Shown one piece after another: positions 6,647-22,119 of a stretch of DNA of 22,465 bases; position 1 is the first letter of the stretch, and each line of letters opens with the position of its first letter. A model generated the notes under the pieces. It ran no database searches and was not told the origin of the DNA. It saw only the letters and a list, made by a program, of their open reading frames with translations. The stretch is taken from IMG/VR virus record IMGVR_UViG_3300030104_002696, positions 1 through 22,465 of that record. One strand, written 5' to 3'. The translations under genes were made by a program, and so were the position numbers. The DNA is from a virus.

Positions 6647-7153
6647 ATGACCGATTTAACAAAGTACAACCATGATTTTGAAGCAGAAAGAGAAACAAAA
6701 CCAAAAATTGAAGAGGGAAGACATAACATGACTTTCGTTGGTGACGAAATTATTTTTGGTAATAATGGATGGGAGGCAGTCAAACTCACCTTTGAAATAG
6801 AAGGCACGACCTTAAATGTAAGTTACGCTTGCACAATGGCACACGATACAAGTGAAAAAGCTGTAAGTATTGGAATAGAATCTTTGCGCAAGATTGCCAA
6901 TTCTTTAGGTGTGACTGGCGCTCTTAAAGACCCGGAAAAACAATTCCTTGGAAAGAAATGCAGTGCTGAGTTGGTTGTGAATGACAGAGGTTACTTAGAA
7001 ATCAAAAGTGATTTTGGTAACACTTTTCAACCAGTAGAAAAAGCAGCAAAGAAAAAACCTACCAAGAAAGAACAAATCAAAGCCGAAGCTGATTTCGTAA
7101 AAAAGGCATCAGCAGATGTAGATGACGACTTTGATGATGAAATTCCGTTCTAG
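6647..7153 (+). CDS. DUF669-like single-stranded DNA-binding protein with SSB-type acidic tail
   Basis: The 168-residue product starts one base after the ATPase gene's stop, with GGAGAG upstream. The N-terminal ~120 residues (YNHDFEAE, EEGRHNMTFVGDEI, VKLTFEIEG, SIGIESLRKIANSLG, FLGKKCSAEL) match the DUF669 pattern found beside Sak4 in many phages. A Lys-rich linker (~128-150) leads to the C-terminus DVDDDFDDEIPF, which copies the DDDIPF-type tip that bacterial SSB uses to recruit replication and repair partners. The protein probably coats ssDNA and loads the Sak4 ATPase and perhaps host proteins. The SSB role is inferred from tail and context; an OB fold was not verified. Confidence 0.82.
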   Translation: MTDLTKYNHDFEAERETKPKIEEGRHNMTFVGDEIIFGNNGWEAVKLTFEIEGTTLNVSYACTMAHDTSEKAVSIGIESLRKIANSLGVTGALKDPEKQFLGKKCSAELVVNDRGYLEIKSDFGNTFQPVEKAAKKKPTKKEQIKAEADFVKKASADVDDDFDDEIPF

Positions 7154-7523
7154 TCCTTTTCTTGAACACAGGCCGTCATTATGTTCATACTGTTTAAAAC
7201 CAGTTGGCGGTCTGCTTTTCCATCATAAAGACAGGTGGTATGCAGCTTGTAGCAGAGAGCACCTGTCAAAAATAAAAAAACAAATTATTACAGGAAAAAG
7301 AAATACCTTGAAAGCACCAATGATAAACAACAGCGCAGTCATAGATGCAGTAAGTTCTTGCAAAGATATTTACACCAAACTTGCAAAAGAAAATAAATCT
7401 TATGTTATTCATGAATGGAAAAAAGATGACCGGGTAAGATTATTTCATCAAGCAATAAAAGAATATTTAGTTGTATGCACTGAGCAAGCATATCAAGGTT
7501 TCTCTTTAGAGGACGATGGTTGA
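7137..7523 (+). CDS. Small zinc-finger-like protein of the replication operon
   Basis: The gene begins inside the end of the DUF669 gene. ATG codons at 7122, 7134 and 7137 are all possible and none has a clear ribosome binding site, so the start is approximate (128 residues from 7137). The N-terminal part carries CSYC, then HH, then a CSREHL segment (~residues 16-44), spacing consistent with a treble-clef or ribbon-type zinc site. The C-terminal two thirds is helical and charged. It lies directly before the primase-helicase gene and overlaps it by 8 bases. A role in binding DNA or the primase is plausible but not shown; I do not recognise the family. Confidence 0.68.
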   Translation: MKFRSSPFLEHRPSLCSYCLKPVGGLLFHHKDRWYAACSREHLSKIKKQIITGKRNTLKAPMINNSAVIDAVSSCKDIYTKLAKENKSYVIHEWKKDDRVRLFHQAIKEYLVVCTEQAYQGFSLEDDG

Positions 7524-9357
7524 CTTAACAAGATATTTAAAAGATGGCATTACCATTGACTCGAATTTCACATTTAGAGGTTCAAGTAAGTCTTTAGATG
7601 ATCTTATCTATGAAATGTCAAATGAAGGATTGTTAGTAGATTATTTGGAAACGTCAGGCGAATTGGTGCGCGTTAGAGTTGGTGGTGGCAATACACATAG
7701 ACCAGACAAACATGGTGAGAAAAGTGGTTGGTACACTTTTTTCCAAACAGGTGATTATCAAAACGCAGTTTATGGTAACTGGCGCACCGGTTTACAAAGA
7801 CAATGGTCTAATTTCGATGTTAATGAGTTAGAGCCAAAACAAAGACAAAAGTTAAAAACAGATTTAGATGAAGCAAAACGTAAAGCAGAGGAAGCAAGAA
7901 AGAAAAGGCAAGACGAAGTTGCTGAGTTGTGTCAAAAAAGATTCGCAAGTTACAAAGAACTGACCGAGCATCCTTATCTGGATGCAAAAGGCATCAAGAA
8001 CGATTACGGATTCAGAGCGCACAGAGATACGCTAGTGATACCTATTTATTCTATGGATGGTGAGATTCGTTCCTTGCAGCACATTGATAAGAAATCAAAT
8101 AAGCGTTTTGTATCGTCATCAGAGATTAAGGGTAACGTATTCCCGGTAGGATTCGACATCAAGCAAGCGAGTGAGGTGGGTGAACTCGTTGTGGTTGAGG
8201 GAGTTGCTACTGGCATAAGCGTACACATGGCGACCAAACTGCCAGTTTTGGTGGTATTTAGCGCAAGTTTTGCCATTGAAGCATTAACAAGATTTAGAAA
8301 ACACTCACAAGCAAAATTAACATTAGCATTTGATAATGATGAAAATGGGGTGGGCCAGAAAAAAGCCAATGAATGTGCAAACAGTTTAGCTAATACAGTT
8401 ATTAGACTGCCATCCGTACAAGGTGATTTCAATGATTTACATTTGAGCAAGGGTTTAGATGCAGTTAAATCAGAGATACTTGACAGTAAATTGGGGATTA
8501 GACGATATGAAATACGACAATTAGTTGGTAAACCACCAGAGATACAATTTCTTGTTGATCGTCTTATCCCTTTATCTACACCTGGTGTTTTGAGTTCAGT
8601 CGGTGGTATTGGTAAATCTTTTATGGCATTAAAACTCGCAATGGATATTGCCAATGGTGGCGGTACATTCATGGGTAAGAATGTTCTGCAATCCGGGAAT
8701 TCAGTATTGTTTTGTGCAGAGGATAATCGCGAGGAAGTGTGGCGAAGGATAGATGCACTTGATCCAGAAGGCAAACGATTCGATGCGCCTTACGATGTTT
8801 TCTGCGTAACCATAGCAGACTTAGGCAAGCCGATGATTCTCTTGTCAGAGGACAATATAAACAGTCAGGCAATGGAGATTGTTGAGGAGTTAAAAGGTAT
8901 TCCAGATTTAAAAATGGTTGTCTTTGATCCAATACAAAGTTTCGTGTCTGCAAGCTCCCCCATAAGCAATAGCAATGAGTCAGCGCAGTTGTGGTGTCAG
9001 TTTTGCGCGAGTATATCGGCACAGTTGGGTTGCACTACTTTAAGTATTCACCACATGAATAAAACTGCATTAACTGGCACTGAGAGCGCGATGGAAGCGA
9101 GGGCCAGTATCAGGGGCGCTTCAAGTATTGTGGATGGGATGCGGTTTGCTATGGCGATGTGGTTGCCTAATGAAAAGGAAGTGGAAAGGATTTGTGTGGA
9201 GCAAGGTATTGAACCGAATCCAACCAGTGTGGTCCGGGCGGGTGTGGTGAAAAGTAATAGCGGTAATGTGGACACTTCCATTAAAACATTAATCAGAGAG
9301 AAAGATTCACCAGTATTGGATATATTAAAAGAGGAAAAAGGGATTACATGGGATTGA
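7516..9357 (+). CDS. Toprim primase - RepA-like hexameric helicase fusion
   Basis: This 613-residue protein joins a primase-type half to a helicase-type half. Residues ~60-100 (GGGNTHRPDKHGEKSGWY, YGNWRTG) match the N-terminal module of phage and plasmid Toprim primases. A Lys/Glu-rich helix follows (~108-135). The Toprim core has LVVVEGVATG (Glu229), LAFDNDENG (Asp273, Asp275) and GDFND (Asp304). From about 340 a RepA/AAA_25-like RecA-fold ATPase begins: Walker A SVGGIGKS (361-368), VLFCAEDN (~397-404), MVVFDPIQSF (Asp471) and STLSIHH-type sensor His512/513. It would unwind the fork and lay primers, so the phage need not use host DnaB or DnaG. No zinc-binding domain is visible at the N-terminus; the previous gene's Cys motif might supply one in trans. 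Confidence 0.88.
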   Translation: MVDLTRYLKDGITIDSNFTFRGSSKSLDDLIYEMSNEGLLVDYLETSGELVRVRVGGGNTHRPDKHGEKSGWYTFFQTGDYQNAVYGNWRTGLQRQWSNFDVNELEPKQRQKLKTDLDEAKRKAEEARKKRQDEVAELCQKRFASYKELTEHPYLDAKGIKNDYGFRAHRDTLVIPIYSMDGEIRSLQHIDKKSNKRFVSSSEIKGNVFPVGFDIKQASEVGELVVVEGVATGISVHMATKLPVLVVFSASFAIEALTRFRKHSQAKLTLAFDNDENGVGQKKANECANSLANTVIRLPSVQGDFNDLHLSKGLDAVKSEILDSKLGIRRYEIRQLVGKPPEIQFLVDRLIPLSTPGVLSSVGGIGKSFMALKLAMDIANGGGTFMGKNVLQSGNSVLFCAEDNREEVWRRIDALDPEGKRFDAPYDVFCVTIADLGKPMILLSEDNINSQAMEIVEELKGIPDLKMVVFDPIQSFVSASSPISNSNESAQLWCQFCASISAQLGCTTLSIHHMNKTALTGTESAMEARASIRGASSIVDGMRFAMAMWLPNEKEVERICVEQGIEPNPTSVVRAGVVKSNSGNVDTSIKTLIREKDSPVLDILKEEKGITWD

Positions 9358-10511
9358 ACATGAAACAAAAAGAATTATTCGATGAACAAAAAAACGATCT
9401 TTTCGGTTGGGATGGTATGCCTGAGTATCAAAATGAAAAACAGCCACGACCAGAAATAACAGCTACTTTTAAATTCAGAAACAAACAGGATTACGATACT
9501 TTTCAAGCATTGGTAAAGAAGCATATATATGATGGCAAGAAAGTTTTTGATGGTATGCAAAAAAAGGATAAAAAAAACGCATGGTATCCATTGAATGAAA
9601 AAGCCAGTAATTATTACTATGAATCAGATAATCCAAAGAACCCCAGATTCCCTGTATATATAGTTAGTAAAGGCAGATGGGATCGCAACCCAACATCTAG
9701 GGCATTGAAAGAGATGGGTGTTCCTTTTTACATGGTGGTTGAGGAAAACGAGAAAGATAAATATTTAAACATCGTAGATGAAAACCAAATACTCATACTG
9801 CCACAAAAATATTTAGATGATTACGATACATTCTGGTATGACGATGATCCCAGAAAAGGGCCAGGAGCAGCTAGAAATTTTGTATGGGATCACTCCATTG
9901 AAAATGGTCATAAGTGGCATTGGGTAATGGATGATAATTTAGAATCATTTGAAAGATTAAATAACAACATGAAAGTCAAATGTGTGGATGGTACTCCATT
10001 GTATGTATGCGAAGATTACGTTTTAAGATATAAAAACATTGCACAAGCGGGCATAAACTATTCAATATTTTGCCCCGCATCAGATTCAAGACCGCCAATA
10101 AAAGTAAACACCAGAATATACAGTTGTTTGTTGATTAGAAACGATGTTCCTTATAGGTGGAGAGGGAGATATAACGAGGATACAGATTTAAGTTTAAGGA
10201 TGATGAAAGATGGTTGGTGTACTGTTCAATTTAATCAGTTTTTATGCGGTAAAAGAGCCACACAAACCATGCGAGGTGGTAACAGTGCTGAATTTTATGA
10301 TGAAGAAGGCACTAAAAACAAAAGCCAAATGTTAGCTGATATGCACCCAGATGTAGCCAGAGTTGCATGGAAATGGAACAGATGGCATCACCATGTTGAT
10401 TATTCGCCTTTTAGTAAAAATTCTTTGATTGAGATTGATAACCTAAAAATAAAAAAAGGCATTAACAATTACGGAATGATTTTGAAAACAAAAAATAATT
10501 TAGAGTTATAA
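9348..10511 (+). CDS. TET-associated-type (TAGT/GREB1-like) glycosyltransferase
   Basis: The 387-residue protein has an N-terminal part with a beta-alpha segment (ITATFKFRNKQDYDTFQALV, ~37-56, then WYP) common to phage proteins of this group. A GT-A-like domain follows from ~100: FPVYIVSKGRW (101-111), GPGAARNF (171-178), the DxD-like WVMDDN (Asp195, Asp196) and RYNEDTDLSLRMM (Glu277, Asp278). This is the signature I associate with TET/JBP-associated glycosyltransferases, predicted to add sugars to modified DNA bases in phages. No TET/JBP, methyltransferase or hydroxymethylase gene is visible in this window. The ATG at 9348 overlaps the helicase gene by 10 bases and has AAGGGA upstream; 9360 is an alternative. 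Target (DNA or protein) is unproven. Confidence 0.82.
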   Translation: MGLNMKQKELFDEQKNDLFGWDGMPEYQNEKQPRPEITATFKFRNKQDYDTFQALVKKHIYDGKKVFDGMQKKDKKNAWYPLNEKASNYYYESDNPKNPRFPVYIVSKGRWDRNPTSRALKEMGVPFYMVVEENEKDKYLNIVDENQILILPQKYLDDYDTFWYDDDPRKGPGAARNFVWDHSIENGHKWHWVMDDNLESFERLNNNMKVKCVDGTPLYVCEDYVLRYKNIAQAGINYSIFCPASDSRPPIKVNTRIYSCLLIRNDVPYRWRGRYNEDTDLSLRMMKDGWCTVQFNQFLCGKRATQTMRGGNSAEFYDEEGTKNKSQMLADMHPDVARVAWKWNRWHHHVDYSPFSKNSLIEIDNLKIKKGINNYGMILKTKNNLEL

Positions 10512-10805: not shown

Positions 10806-10807
10806 TG

Positions 10808-10864
10808 TTGATGAAGTTTTCATCAACCCCTGATGAAGTTTTCATCAACAGTTGATGAAGTTTT
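10808..10864. repeat. Three direct repeats with 22-bp period, two of them palindromic
   Basis: Copies start at 10808, about 10830 and 10852. The first is a perfect inverted repeat TTGATGAA-GTT-TTCATCAA, the second has 7-bp arms, and the third keeps only the left arm and spacer. A 22-bp period (about two helical turns) places the sites on one face of the DNA. They lie directly upstream of the candidate promoter and of the HTH gene, as expected for iterons or operators. Confidence 0.85.
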
Positions 10865-10876
10865 GCGCATACAGAC

Positions 10877-10998: not shown

Positions 10999-11424
10999 GT
11001 GAAAGAGTATTGGTGGATTGAGAGTGGAGTTCCGAGTAATGAGCAAGCAAGCGGATGCGTGCGCTATGCAGTTTCGCAGTATTCGTTCTCGAAGATCAAG
11101 CAAGCGGTGTGGAGGATTTATCGTTTACATCTTGATAGAAAAGATTTAAATGCTTCCGATAAGGTGGTCCTGTATTGTCTATGCGAGCGATTCAGGGTGC
11201 AAAGTATGAGCAGTAGGGATGCGGTGGGGTATTTGAGTAAGATGTGTGGATTGAATCGCACGACAGTAGGTAAGAGTATTCAAAACCTGGTGGATGCGGG
11301 GGTTTTGTGGATAGTGGAAGAGGGGGAAGTGCGGAAGGCGCACAAGCGGTTGGTAGCGAGGAAGTATTTTAAGAAACACTTTTTAATCGTTGGATTGAGC
11401 TTTATATTGAGTTCTGAGGGCTAA
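10999..11424 (+). CDS. HTH_36-type DNA-binding protein (replication or regulatory)
   Basis: The gene starts at a GTG with AGGGAG at 10986-10991. The central part of the 141-residue product (LNASDKVVLYCLCERF, MSSRDAVGYLSKMCGLNRTTVGKSIQNLVDAGVLWIV) is a winged helix-turn-helix of the HTH_36/DnaD-like type found in plasmid and phage replication initiators and regulators. The C-terminus is basic then hydrophobic (FLIVGLSFIL). The three 22-bp repeats upstream are natural candidates for its binding sites, for autoregulation or as iterons. The coding strand is unusually G-rich (bases 11281-11340 contain 29 G and 6 C by count), unlike the neighbouring genes, which may mark different origin or strand-specific mutation. 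Initiator versus repressor cannot be decided here. Confidence 0.8.
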   Translation: MKEYWWIESGVPSNEQASGCVRYAVSQYSFSKIKQAVWRIYRLHLDRKDLNASDKVVLYCLCERFRVQSMSSRDAVGYLSKMCGLNRTTVGKSIQNLVDAGVLWIVEEGEVRKAHKRLVARKYFKKHFLIVGLSFILSSEG

Positions 11425-11430
11425 ATGTGT

Positions 11431-11455
11431 GGTAGGTAGGGGGTAGGGTAGGGGG
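11431..11455 (+). repeat. G-run repeats separated by TA (G-quadruplex candidate)
   Basis: Five G-runs of lengths 2, 2, 5, 3 and 5 are each separated by TA. With only three runs of at least three G, a two-layer quadruplex is the more likely form. It lies after the HTH gene's stop, in the convergent junction. Confidence 0.6.
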
Positions 11456-11502
11456 TGTGTGCTAAGAACGCCCAGGGAGATGTAAATGCGCCCTTAACAC
11501 AC
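11455..11502. repeat. Imperfect inverted repeat in the convergent junction
   Basis: GTGTGCTAAG (11457-11466) and CTTAACACAC (11493-11502) pair with one mismatch around a 26-base loop. It separates the HTH gene from the minus-strand cluster. No U-tract follows on either strand, so a terminator role is uncertain. Confidence 0.45.
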
Positions 11503-13861: not shown

Positions 13862-14341
13862 ATGAAAGAAAAAACTACCAAAAAACGCGCAAAACTAGGA
13901 AGAAAGCGCATTGATTTGAGCGATAAAGAAACCTTAAAGAAAATAAAACATCTTGCTGGCCTTGGATTATCGGATCAGGCAATCGCAACATCCTTGGGAT
14001 GTTCGAGGGCTACTATATTAAGACGTAAACGCGATTCTGCAACATTTGATACAGCTATAAAAGAAGGAAAGATCAAAGCCGTTGCTGACGTTTCTAACGC
14101 ACTCTATGATTCCGCACTTGGTCGCAATGGCGAAAAGCCCAACACAAGCGCGCAAATATTCTTTCTCAAAAATAGAGGCGCAAGCGAAAACGTAGGCGCG
14201 TGGAAGGATCGCTTAGAGCAAACCACTAACTACAACGTCAACCTGGCTGACATCATTGGCTCACGCAAGCAGGCACTCACACATTCCACTGGCACGCTGC
14301 CACCCGCACCCAATAAAATAGTTGTCAACAATGATGACTAA
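13862..14341 (+). CDS. terS: Terminase small subunit
   Basis: The 159-residue product has a Lys/Arg-rich N-terminus, an HTH (LAGLGLSDQAIATSLGCSRATILRRK, ~residues 37-62), a helical part (AIKEGKIKAVADVSNALYDSAL) and AQIFFLKNRGASENVGAWKDR, a segment typical of phage small terminases and their relatives. It lies 126 bases before the large subunit. It would recognise the packaging site and load DNA onto the terminase-portal motor. The C-terminal ~40 residues are Pro/Asn-rich and probably flexible. No Shine-Dalgarno is seen before the ATG. The 3' half is unusually C-rich on the coding strand. Confidence 0.83.
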   Translation: MKEKTTKKRAKLGRKRIDLSDKETLKKIKHLAGLGLSDQAIATSLGCSRATILRRKRDSATFDTAIKEGKIKAVADVSNALYDSALGRNGEKPNTSAQIFFLKNRGASENVGAWKDRLEQTTNYNVNLADIIGSRKQALTHSTGTLPPAPNKIVVNNDD

Positions 14342-14343
14342 AG

Positions 14344-14352
14344 TTATCCACA
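14344..14352 (+). promoter_or_regulatory. Perfect DnaA-box consensus (TTATCCACA)
   Basis: A 9-base match to the strongest DnaA box lies just after the terS stop and directly next to the GC-rich palindrome. A single chance match is possible, but the placement is suggestive. Confidence 0.5.
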
Positions 14353-14426
14353 GCGCGCGCAAGCACGCAAGCGAGCGGGGGCAAGGAAAACGAAATAACC
14401 CCCCTTTGCGCGCGCGTACTGGTACG
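14353..14426. other. GC-rich palindromic island between terS and terL (cos- or origin-like)
   Basis: GCGCGCGCAA (14353-14362) and TTGCGCGCGC (14406-14415) are perfect 10-base arms. GGGGG (14377-14381) and CCCCCC (14399-14404) are nested inside. CGTAC-TG-GTACG (14415-14426) follows, then an AT-rich tract. The island is far more GC-rich than the genome around it. No coding frame was seen across 14342-14467. Confidence 0.6.
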
Positions 14427-14467
14427 TTATATATATCTATTGAACAAAAATTTTATTACTTTCTAAG

Positions 14468-16000
14468 ATGAAATACGGAGCAGAACAAGAAAAACAACTG
14501 ATGACTGAGCTTTGGTCTATAGACATCAAAGACAGTCCACTAAACTTTGTTAAGTTTGCCTTCCCTTGGAATCAAGAGAACACCCCCCTCGAAGGTTTTA
14601 CAGGCCCAAGGAAGTGGCAAGAAAAAATTTTGCGAGATATTGGAAACCACATACACAGAAACCAAGGAGAAAAGATACCTGAGATGTTTAGATTGGCGTT
14701 AGCCTCTGGGCGCGGTATAGGTAAGTCAGCCTTAGTTGCTTGGCTCATACTATGGATGCTCTCCACCCGCCTTGGCTCAACCATCATCGTCACAGCCAAC
14801 ACCGAGCAACAGCTACGCTCCCGCACCTGGGCTGAACTCGGTAAGTGGCTAACGCTATCTATCAACTCACACTGGTTCCACAAAACCGCCACCTCACTGA
14901 AACCTGAGAAGTGGTTTGAAGAAGCACTAATACGCGACCTACAAATAGACACCGGTTACTATTATGCGCAATCACAGCTCTGGTCGGAAGAAAACCCAGA
15001 TGCGTTTGCCGGGATTCACTCCACCTACGGAGTATGCTTGATTATGGACGAAGCATCAGGTATTCCATCACCCATTTACTCAGTGTCAGAAGGATTTTTC
15101 TCCGAACCCACAGCAGACAGATACTGGTTTACCTTTTCTAACCCAAGAAGAAATACAGGGCCGTTCTACGATAGCTTTCATTCCAAGCGCAAATACTGGC
15201 ATAACGAACAAATAGACTCGCGCGATGTAGAAGGCACAGACCAAAAACTGTTCCAAAGTATGTTAGATCAATACGGAGAAAATTCTACTGTTGCGAGAGT
15301 GGAAGTGCTAGGTGAGTTTCCAAGTGCCGATGACGATACGATTATTCCTATGGAGCTTGCAAGGGCTGCAGTTGATAGAGAAGTTTCTTTGAGTGCATCT
15401 GCGCCTATTGTGTGGGGTGTGGATGTGGCGCGATTTGGTGGAGATAACTCTGCCTTGTGTGTTCGACAAGGTAACACTGTTCTGGAAATGAAAACATTTA
15501 ACTCTATGGATTTAATGCAACTATGCGGAGCGATAAAAAACAAGTATGATAACGAAACAGTAATGACAAAACCGCAAGAGATATTAGTGGATGTGATTGG
15601 GCTAGGTAGCGGGGTAGTGGATAGGCTGTCAGAGCAGAACTTGCCAGTGCGCGGTGTGAATGTGGCAGAATCACCATCTACCAAAAAGAATTTTTTAAAC
15701 TTGCGAGCTGAACTTTGGTTTGCAATAAAAGATTGGTTAGCTCAAAGAGATTGTCGATTACCGGATGATGATGAATTGGTAGCAGAGTTAGTTGCACCAA
15801 TTTATAAATACACCTCAACAGGAAAAATAAAGATTGAATCCAAAGAGGAGATGAAAAAAAGAGGCATTAAGTCACCCGATAGAGCCGATGCACTAGCACT
15901 TACCATGGCAAGTTCGGCAGCTTCATTTAGTGGAAGTCAATCATTTATGGGGTATAATTTTAAAAAACCATTAAAATCAAGAATTTTGAGAGTTGGATAA
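14468..16000 (+). CDS. terL: Terminase large subunit (ATPase-nuclease)
   Basis: The 510-residue protein has both terminase domains. The ATPase has Walker A LASGRGIGKS (78-87), Walker B VCLIMDEA (Asp194, Glu195) and a WFTFSNPRR coupling motif (~220-228). The RNaseH-like nuclease has GVDVARFGGDNS (Asp319, Asp326), ILVDVIGLGSG (Asp375) and SPDRADALALT (Asp471, Asp474). It cuts concatemers and pumps DNA into the prohead through the portal encoded next. Strand composition flips near the domain junction: 14761-14880 has 46 C and 22 G, while 15361-15480 has 18 C and 41 G by count. This may reflect recombination between domains or a replication feature. Confidence 0.95.
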   Translation: MKYGAEQEKQLMTELWSIDIKDSPLNFVKFAFPWNQENTPLEGFTGPRKWQEKILRDIGNHIHRNQGEKIPEMFRLALASGRGIGKSALVAWLILWMLSTRLGSTIIVTANTEQQLRSRTWAELGKWLTLSINSHWFHKTATSLKPEKWFEEALIRDLQIDTGYYYAQSQLWSEENPDAFAGIHSTYGVCLIMDEASGIPSPIYSVSEGFFSEPTADRYWFTFSNPRRNTGPFYDSFHSKRKYWHNEQIDSRDVEGTDQKLFQSMLDQYGENSTVARVEVLGEFPSADDDTIIPMELARAAVDREVSLSASAPIVWGVDVARFGGDNSALCVRQGNTVLEMKTFNSMDLMQLCGAIKNKYDNETVMTKPQEILVDVIGLGSGVVDRLSEQNLPVRGVNVAESPSTKKNFLNLRAELWFAIKDWLAQRDCRLPDDDELVAELVAPIYKYTSTGKIKIESKEEMKKRGIKSPDRADALALTMASSAASFSGSQSFMGYNFKKPLKSRILRVG

Positions 16001-21096: not shown

Positions 21097-22119
21097 ATGA
21101 GCAACACCGGAAAACCGATTGCATTACAATCAGAGTTAGATAAAACTGTAAGTTCTTTTGAAAATCTTTTGACTCCAACTGAGGAAGTAACAGAGGAAGT
21201 TCAAGCAGAGCAGACAGAGGCATCTCCAGAAGATGTTGTTGAAACAGAAATGGAAGAAGAAGTCGAAGTTGAGGCTGAAGCAGAAGTTGAAGTTGATGAT
21301 GACATTGAGGAAGGAGAGGAAGAAGTAGAACAGTCTTTAGAAGAACAAACAGAAGTAGAGGAAGAACTACAACCTGATGTTTACACTGTTAAGATTGATG
21401 GTGTCGAACAAGAGGTTACGTTAGATGAACTCAGAAACGGATATTCTCGTCAACAAGACTATACTCGCAAAACTCAAGAACTGGCACAACAGCGTAAAAG
21501 TTTTGAAGATCAGCAATCAGAGTTAGCGAAAAAAGATGCTATTTACGCTCAGTTGTTGCCTCAGTTAGAGGCAAGTTTAAATGGCGAATTGGAAAACGAA
21601 CCAGATTGGGCAGCACTGTACGAATCTGATCCTATTGGGTATGTTCGTGAAAAAGACGTTTGGGATGAAAAACGAAAAAAATTGGATGCAGCAAAAGCTG
21701 AAAACAAAAGATTGCAAGATGAAGCAATACAAAAACAGCAAGAGCAAATTCAAAAATATGTTGAGTATGGTCATCAACAATTAAAAGAAAGAATCCCAGA
21801 TTGGTCTGATGTTGAGAAATCTCAAAAAGAGAAACTTGCAATCACAAACTACGCAGTTAATGAACTTGGATTTACCCAAGATGAAATTAATCAGGTGATA
21901 GATTATAGAGTGTTAATCGGTTTACGAGATGGGATGCTATACCGCAAACAAGTCGCAGCATCCAAGAAGAAACCAACCCAAAAAAAGGCATCGAAAGTTG
22001 CTAGACCTGGAACATCCAATAAGCCAAAAACAACAACACCAGTGAAAAAAGCAAAAATGAGATTAGCTAAATCTGGCAAAGTGCAAGATGCAGCTAAAGT
22101 TTTTGAACAATTAATTTAA
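21097..22119 (+). CDS. Scaffolding protein
   Basis: The ATG at 21097 follows AAGGAG at 21086-21091; a GTG at 21091 in frame overlaps that signal and is rejected. The 340-residue product has a very Glu-rich N-terminal part (~25-95), then VYTVKIDGVEQEVTLDELRNG and YSRQQDYTRKTQEL, a motif typical of phage scaffolds. Long helices follow, and the tail is basic (KKKPTQKKASKVARPG onward). It would guide capsid assembly and be lost on maturation. It directly precedes the capsid gene, as usual. Confidence 0.83.
   Translation: MSNTGKPIALQSELDKTVSSFENLLTPTEEVTEEVQAEQTEASPEDVVETEMEEEVEVEAEAEVEVDDDIEEGEEEVEQSLEEQTEVEEELQPDVYTVKIDGVEQEVTLDELRNGYSRQQDYTRKTQELAQQRKSFEDQQSELAKKDAIYAQLLPQLEASLNGELENEPDWAALYESDPIGYVREKDVWDEKRKKLDAAKAENKRLQDEAIQKQQEQIQKYVEYGHQQLKERIPDWSDVEKSQKEKLAITNYAVNELGFTQDEINQVIDYRVLIGLRDGMLYRKQVAASKKKPTQKKASKVARPGTSNKPKTTTPVKKAKMRLAKSGKVQDAAKVFEQLI

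Follow-up and report, generated by a model that had tools for sequence, protein, structure and literature searches.

Plasmid and phage origins of the DnaA-dependent type include P1 oriR and RK2 oriV. Single-strand initiation and primosome assembly sites are formed by PriA hairpins or DnaA-box hairpins. As for DNA packaging, lambda-like cos regions combine a constant nicking site with an adjacent variable region that holds a site for a host bending protein (PMC4669245). Sf6 packages by the headful mechanism, and the pac site of the phage P22 lies within terS (PMC9611059). The binding of TerS at pac can be sequence-independent (PMC4737164).

The locus described here comes from a marine phage in IMG/VR. 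It was analysed within a stretch of 22,465 bases, hereafter the window. It lies between terS (13862-14341, + strand; 159 aa with an N-terminal HTH; phrog_309, E 4e-23) and terL (14468-16000, + strand; phrog_2, E 1e-48, and phrog_5902), as the preliminary description had stated, and an SU10-type portal gene follows the pair. Further upstream, a TAGT-type glycosyltransferase gene (9348-10511; PF20691, phrog_842) suggests that the phage DNA is modified. The preliminary description proposed either a packaging site or an origin recruiting host DnaA, and these are still the two best explanations. Judging from its sequence, the element probably serves as a start site of DNA copying or of packaging.

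The core behind terS

In the window, the perfect DnaA box TTATCCACA is located at 14344-14352 on the + strand. It is the sole perfect copy in the whole window, where copies with at most one mismatch occur at chance level (8 against 7.2 expected). The box is followed at once by the left arm GCGCGCGCAA (14353-14362, + strand), which is complementary at 10/10 positions to the right arm TTGCGCGCGC (14406-14415, + strand). A G5 run (14377-14381, + strand) and a C6 run (14399-14404, + strand), which could pair, are nested between them. All these features had been correctly reported before, but the supposed 12-base palindrome CGTACTGGTACG at 14415-14426 is imperfect, consisting of 5-bp arms around TG. 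The AT-rich tract, also noticed earlier, extends from 14428 to 14459 (+ strand), ends in AAAAATTTTATTAC and includes A5T4 at 14446-14454. The local GC content is 0.46, compared to roughly 0.35-0.40 in most of the window. Folding of the window's stretch was not exceptional against dinucleotide shuffles (z of -1.07 as RNA and -1.56 as DNA).

The perfect GC arms stressed by the preliminary description are peculiar to the window's close relatives; the left arm, for instance, is retained as 8-9 bp arms in the loci L003 and L004. The conserved parts are instead the C-run (C5-10 across the family, mode 7), the G-run that follows it and the AT tract. The G-run is degenerate in the window (GCGCGCGCG), where the right arm lies around its position, and reads GCGCGCGGGGG in L004.

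For comparison, 80 related terL loci and 80 terS loci were fetched. They revealed a constant design before terL, made of a C-run, a gap, a G-run, often TATA or GTA, and an A-tract/T-tract. The latter occupies the position of the AT tract in the relatives, GC-rich freshwater phages included. Protein-free pattern scans of IMG/VR recovered the same design. In all loci together, 403 matches were obtained, 280 of them between terS and terL of the window's family, most of the loci behind this figure having been fetched through their terS or terL genes. Many other matches are located directly 3' of further TerS-type genes, and terL then follows at a distance of 0.5-2.4 kb. MW202879, a complete uncultured phage, has the element between terS and a gene for a resolvase, with terL at a distance of about 5 kb. 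The linkage to terS is kept where terL is 1-5 kb away.

The core was described from 253 distinct elements, each closely preceded by an ORF, which in a few cases is not terS. It consists of C5-10, 8-16 nt (typically about 12), the G-run, 16-39 nt (median 24) and the AT tract. The C-run begins a median of 98 nt after the terS stop (51-190 nt, 5-95% range). The AT tract is found in 251 of the 253 elements, partly by construction because the search patterns required it; the same holds for the constancy of the core as a whole and not for the linkage to terS. As clades share modules, the 253 elements are not 253 independent events. Conservation in related phages, suggested earlier as a check, is nevertheless apparent, one core being common to about 250 distinct elements. 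Sequence comparison shows that the stretch is a DNA control region, genuine and widely conserved; this judgement is based on its conservation across relatives and not on the window's own statistics.

Plasmid or cellular relatives of the element were searched for and none was found, and the freshwater form gave no convincing relatives in plasmid or phage DNA. No isolate phage with mapped ends was found to carry the element; it is missing from the near TerL relatives MW202483 (49% identity) and OR003940 (47%). Literature searches returned no experiment on any of its members.

Two observations were made in individual records. L007, L008, L012, L014 and L077, which form the window's sister clade, carry a further strong inverted repeat, GGATGCACTCG...GCGGGTGCATCC, located between the AT tract and terL. 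Between L014 and L089 (IMGVR_UViG_3300030376_002940, 21599-21608), ten bases are missing just upstream of the element. Both flanks repeat the same terS 3' end and spacer, and the gap looks like a scaffold artefact.

Exchangeable modules in front of the core

Three types of module precede the core, namely clusters of DnaA boxes, a three-stem hairpin and palindromic repeats. The motif TTATNCACA occurs 203 times in the 30.7 kb of spacer between the terS stop and the C-run. This corresponds to 6.6 per kb against 0.23 per kb in the same loci, a 29-fold enrichment which shows the box clustering expected of an origin and, being found in several lineages, strengthens the DnaA-origin option of the preliminary description. 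Of the 253 elements, 83 have DnaA boxes; these elements belong to several TerS clusters, and the boxes occur in either orientation. They were found in the window's clade, in L112, L115 and L120, and in the GC-rich freshwater phages. The window's clade has 1-4 boxes (3-4 in the close relatives, one in the window itself), and in the genome record G001 three of four boxes lie at the element. Their positions relative to the core vary, for instance -9/-21, -24/-36 in reversed orientation, and -67/-123.

In the hairpin module, the outer stem is formed by N4GGG pairing with CCCN4 of the C-run. The outer arm was detected in 77 of 214 elements, compared to 4.5 expected. Compensatory changes are seen even where the TerS proteins are 93-100% identical, and the loops, ATGCTCC or ACTCTCC, are invariant while the stems change on both sides. 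The wobble pairs of the apical stem (5 G-T and 0 A-C) point to the + strand. The strand preference comes from these wobbles alone, since whole hairpins fold no worse on the minus strand, and overall better there.

Palindromic repeats of the GATAGTAAGTACTTACTATC type are present in 17 elements. GATC-rich stretches occur in L071, L073 and L074; a GATC (Dam/SeqA) cluster was rejected as a general feature because it is limited to these three loci, with no general enrichment. DnaA boxes (83 elements) and the strict outer stem (64 elements) never occur together. Modules can also differ between very close relatives, as in L106 and L130, whose TerS proteins are 95% identical.

Replication, packaging and RNA control

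A replication-initiation type site which recruits host DnaA in the window's lineage is the tentatively preferred reading, with a probability of roughly 40%; this figure, like the grades given below to the other readings, is a matter of judgement and was not computed. The element would be a composite one, with the constant core (C-run, short gap, G-run, about 24 nt, A-tract/T-tract) 3' of terS and an exchangeable recruitment module in front. In the window's lineage, the module would carry boxes bound by host DnaA. Bound DnaA would help to open the AT tract next to the boxes, or to load helicase or primase, and might act on duplex DNA or on a single strand that is exposed. Recruitment in other lineages would be by a palindromic repeat or a structured hairpin in place of DnaA boxes. 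This reading is favoured because of the DnaA boxes, the constancy of the AT tract, as expected of an unwinding region, and the free exchange of modules. The mutual exclusion of boxes and strict hairpin and the lack of a contig-end pile-up at the core support it as well. Several facts stand against an origin. No DnaA box is found in 170 of the 253 elements, and the boxes vary in position and orientation, in contrast to a rigid oriC. The element always adjoins terS, which is not required of an origin. GC skew gave no origin signature at the element, with a minimum at -4 kb to +0.9 kb; it follows gene direction and is not diagnostic here. The lack of relatives in plasmid or cellular DNA also counts against an origin.

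Moreover, other places in these genomes compete for the role of main origin. At about 10806-10865 of the window, a 22-bp palindromic repeat containing TGATGAAGTTTTCATCAAC is present in 2.5 copies (iterons at 10809-10864), ahead of a replication-initiator-like HTH gene (10999-11424, phrog_8102). At the corresponding position, several relatives have repeats that differ in sequence and are spaced at 21-23 bp. The window's repeats are likely an iteron origin or an autoregulatory operator, and as an origin they would be better placed than the element. In the freshwater records, nearly all DnaA boxes belong to two clusters. One is at the element, and the other, about 1.2 kb before it, accompanies a repeat array that directly follows a repA-like primase/helicase gene. 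Given the iterons at 10.8 kb and the freshwater arrays, the element may serve as an additional site of initiation or loading and not as the main origin. In the freshwater locus L266, an array of TAATGCGGTA repeats with DnaA boxes (7010-7253) directly follows the repA-like gene and is a probable main origin. In the window, the G-rich run GGTAGGTAGGGGGTAGGGTAGGGGG (11426-11460) immediately follows the rep-like gene, close to where gene direction and GC skew switch, and is a possible G-quadruplex.

Packaging start is a somewhat less probable reading, and a doubtful one on its own. TerL would cut at or near the C-run/G-run core, with TerS and a DNA-bending host protein on the flanking module; DnaA would serve here as the bending protein, as IHF does at lambda cosB. 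It is favoured because of the constant linkage to terS, as expected of a pac site and seen in several TerS clusters, and because of the cos-like layout, with a constant nicking site and a variable binding region including a site for a host bending protein (PMC4669245). When 257 Gb of cellular genomes were scanned with a stricter core pattern, 27 matches were obtained, and no upstream ORF shown for them resembled terS, which also supports it. In the freshwater family, TerS has a match to Sf6_terminase, Sf6 being a headful phage, and a pac site of the headful type is more likely than cos. On the other hand, DnaA boxes are unexpected at a packaging site, and the P22 pac lies elsewhere (PMC9611059). 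The left module does not change in step with the TerS HTH. When the HTH identity exceeded 70% and the C-terminus had diverged, 10% of pairs shared the left module, compared to 91% when the HTH identity was below 30% and the C-terminus similar. A TerS-specific site in the left module is therefore not supported, as the module cannot be predicted from HTH identity and as L106 and L130 carry different modules. These figures describe co-variation, and a module changing with the TerS HTH, as a cos site would have it, was not seen. The argument is not final because TerS-pac binding can be independent of sequence (PMC4737164). Within the relatives, TerS proteins with similar C-terminal parts differ in their HTH domains (L035 and L033 share 18% in the HTH and 77% in the C-part), as if these domains had been exchanged.

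Contig ends were examined for a cos cut, and no pile-up was found at the core, where one of about 208 contigs ends. Precise cutting is thereby weakly disfavoured, since contigs run through the core, and only weakly since these are metagenome assemblies and not virion read data. In the freshwater phages, contig ends do pile up, but scattered over terS, a variable gene in which the assemblies seem to have broken. The cos/pac option of the preliminary description thus keeps its strict terS linkage, with the module's independence of the TerS HTH and the missing pile-up against it.

Both functions could also be joined. The element would then represent a new class of phage cis-element, in which a constant core behind terS and interchangeable modules (host DnaA boxes, palindromic operator or folded hairpin) link the start of replication and of packaging. 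This is unlikely as it stands. More generally, the element would, if confirmed, offer a signature for reading the start of replication or packaging from sequence in a large group of uncultured aquatic phages, and would show that host DnaA boxes and a folded hairpin can replace each other at one phage site.

A region at the terS end controlling RNA or transcription and tuning the genes behind terS is an unlikely reading, behind both replication and packaging. In lineages with the hairpin, the region would act as a structured element of the mRNA; elsewhere, operators of the DnaA or repressor type would serve as a roadblock or a regulator. For part of the family, this reading is favoured by the compensatory hairpin with its invariant loops, by the excess of the outer arm and by the + strand wobbles. 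The folding of the minus strand and the enrichment of DnaA boxes, which points to DNA, argue against it, and the gene behind the element varies (terL, resolvase, other small genes). Its more specific forms were rejected, as 14342-14467 holds no intrinsic terminator and the AT tract starts a median of 24 nt past the G-run, no Rfam family matched, and Shine-Dalgarno sequestration by the CTCC loop fits a GGAGCA in one branch only.

Comparison with known systems

Like the pac sites of P22, Sf6 and SPP1, the element lies in the terminase gene region, and one family has an Sf6-type TerS. In contrast, the P22 pac is inside terS (PMC9611059), and that of SPP1 spans the terS promoters and gene start (PMC4737164). 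DnaA boxes or the element's core are not described for these pac sites in the two papers (PMC4737164, PMC9611059). The resemblance to lambda-like cos (cosQ-cosN-cosB, with the IHF site I1) is in the position next to terS and in a constant GC-rich core by a variable module with a site for a host bending protein (PMC4669245). The element differs in being 3' of terS, in having DnaA instead of IHF sites, in the independence of its module from the TerS DNA-binding domain and in the absence of a pile-up of contig ends at the core.

With primosome assembly sites, the element would share that loading can be signalled by either a hairpin or a DnaA box. No known consensus of such sites was found in it, and strand exposure is hypothetical here. 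Compared to DnaA-dependent plasmid and phage origins, the element has no iterons, its box spacing is variable, it is far from the rep-like gene and many relatives' elements have no boxes. Nevertheless, it has in common with these origins clustered TTATCCACA boxes beside GC-rich and AT-rich blocks.
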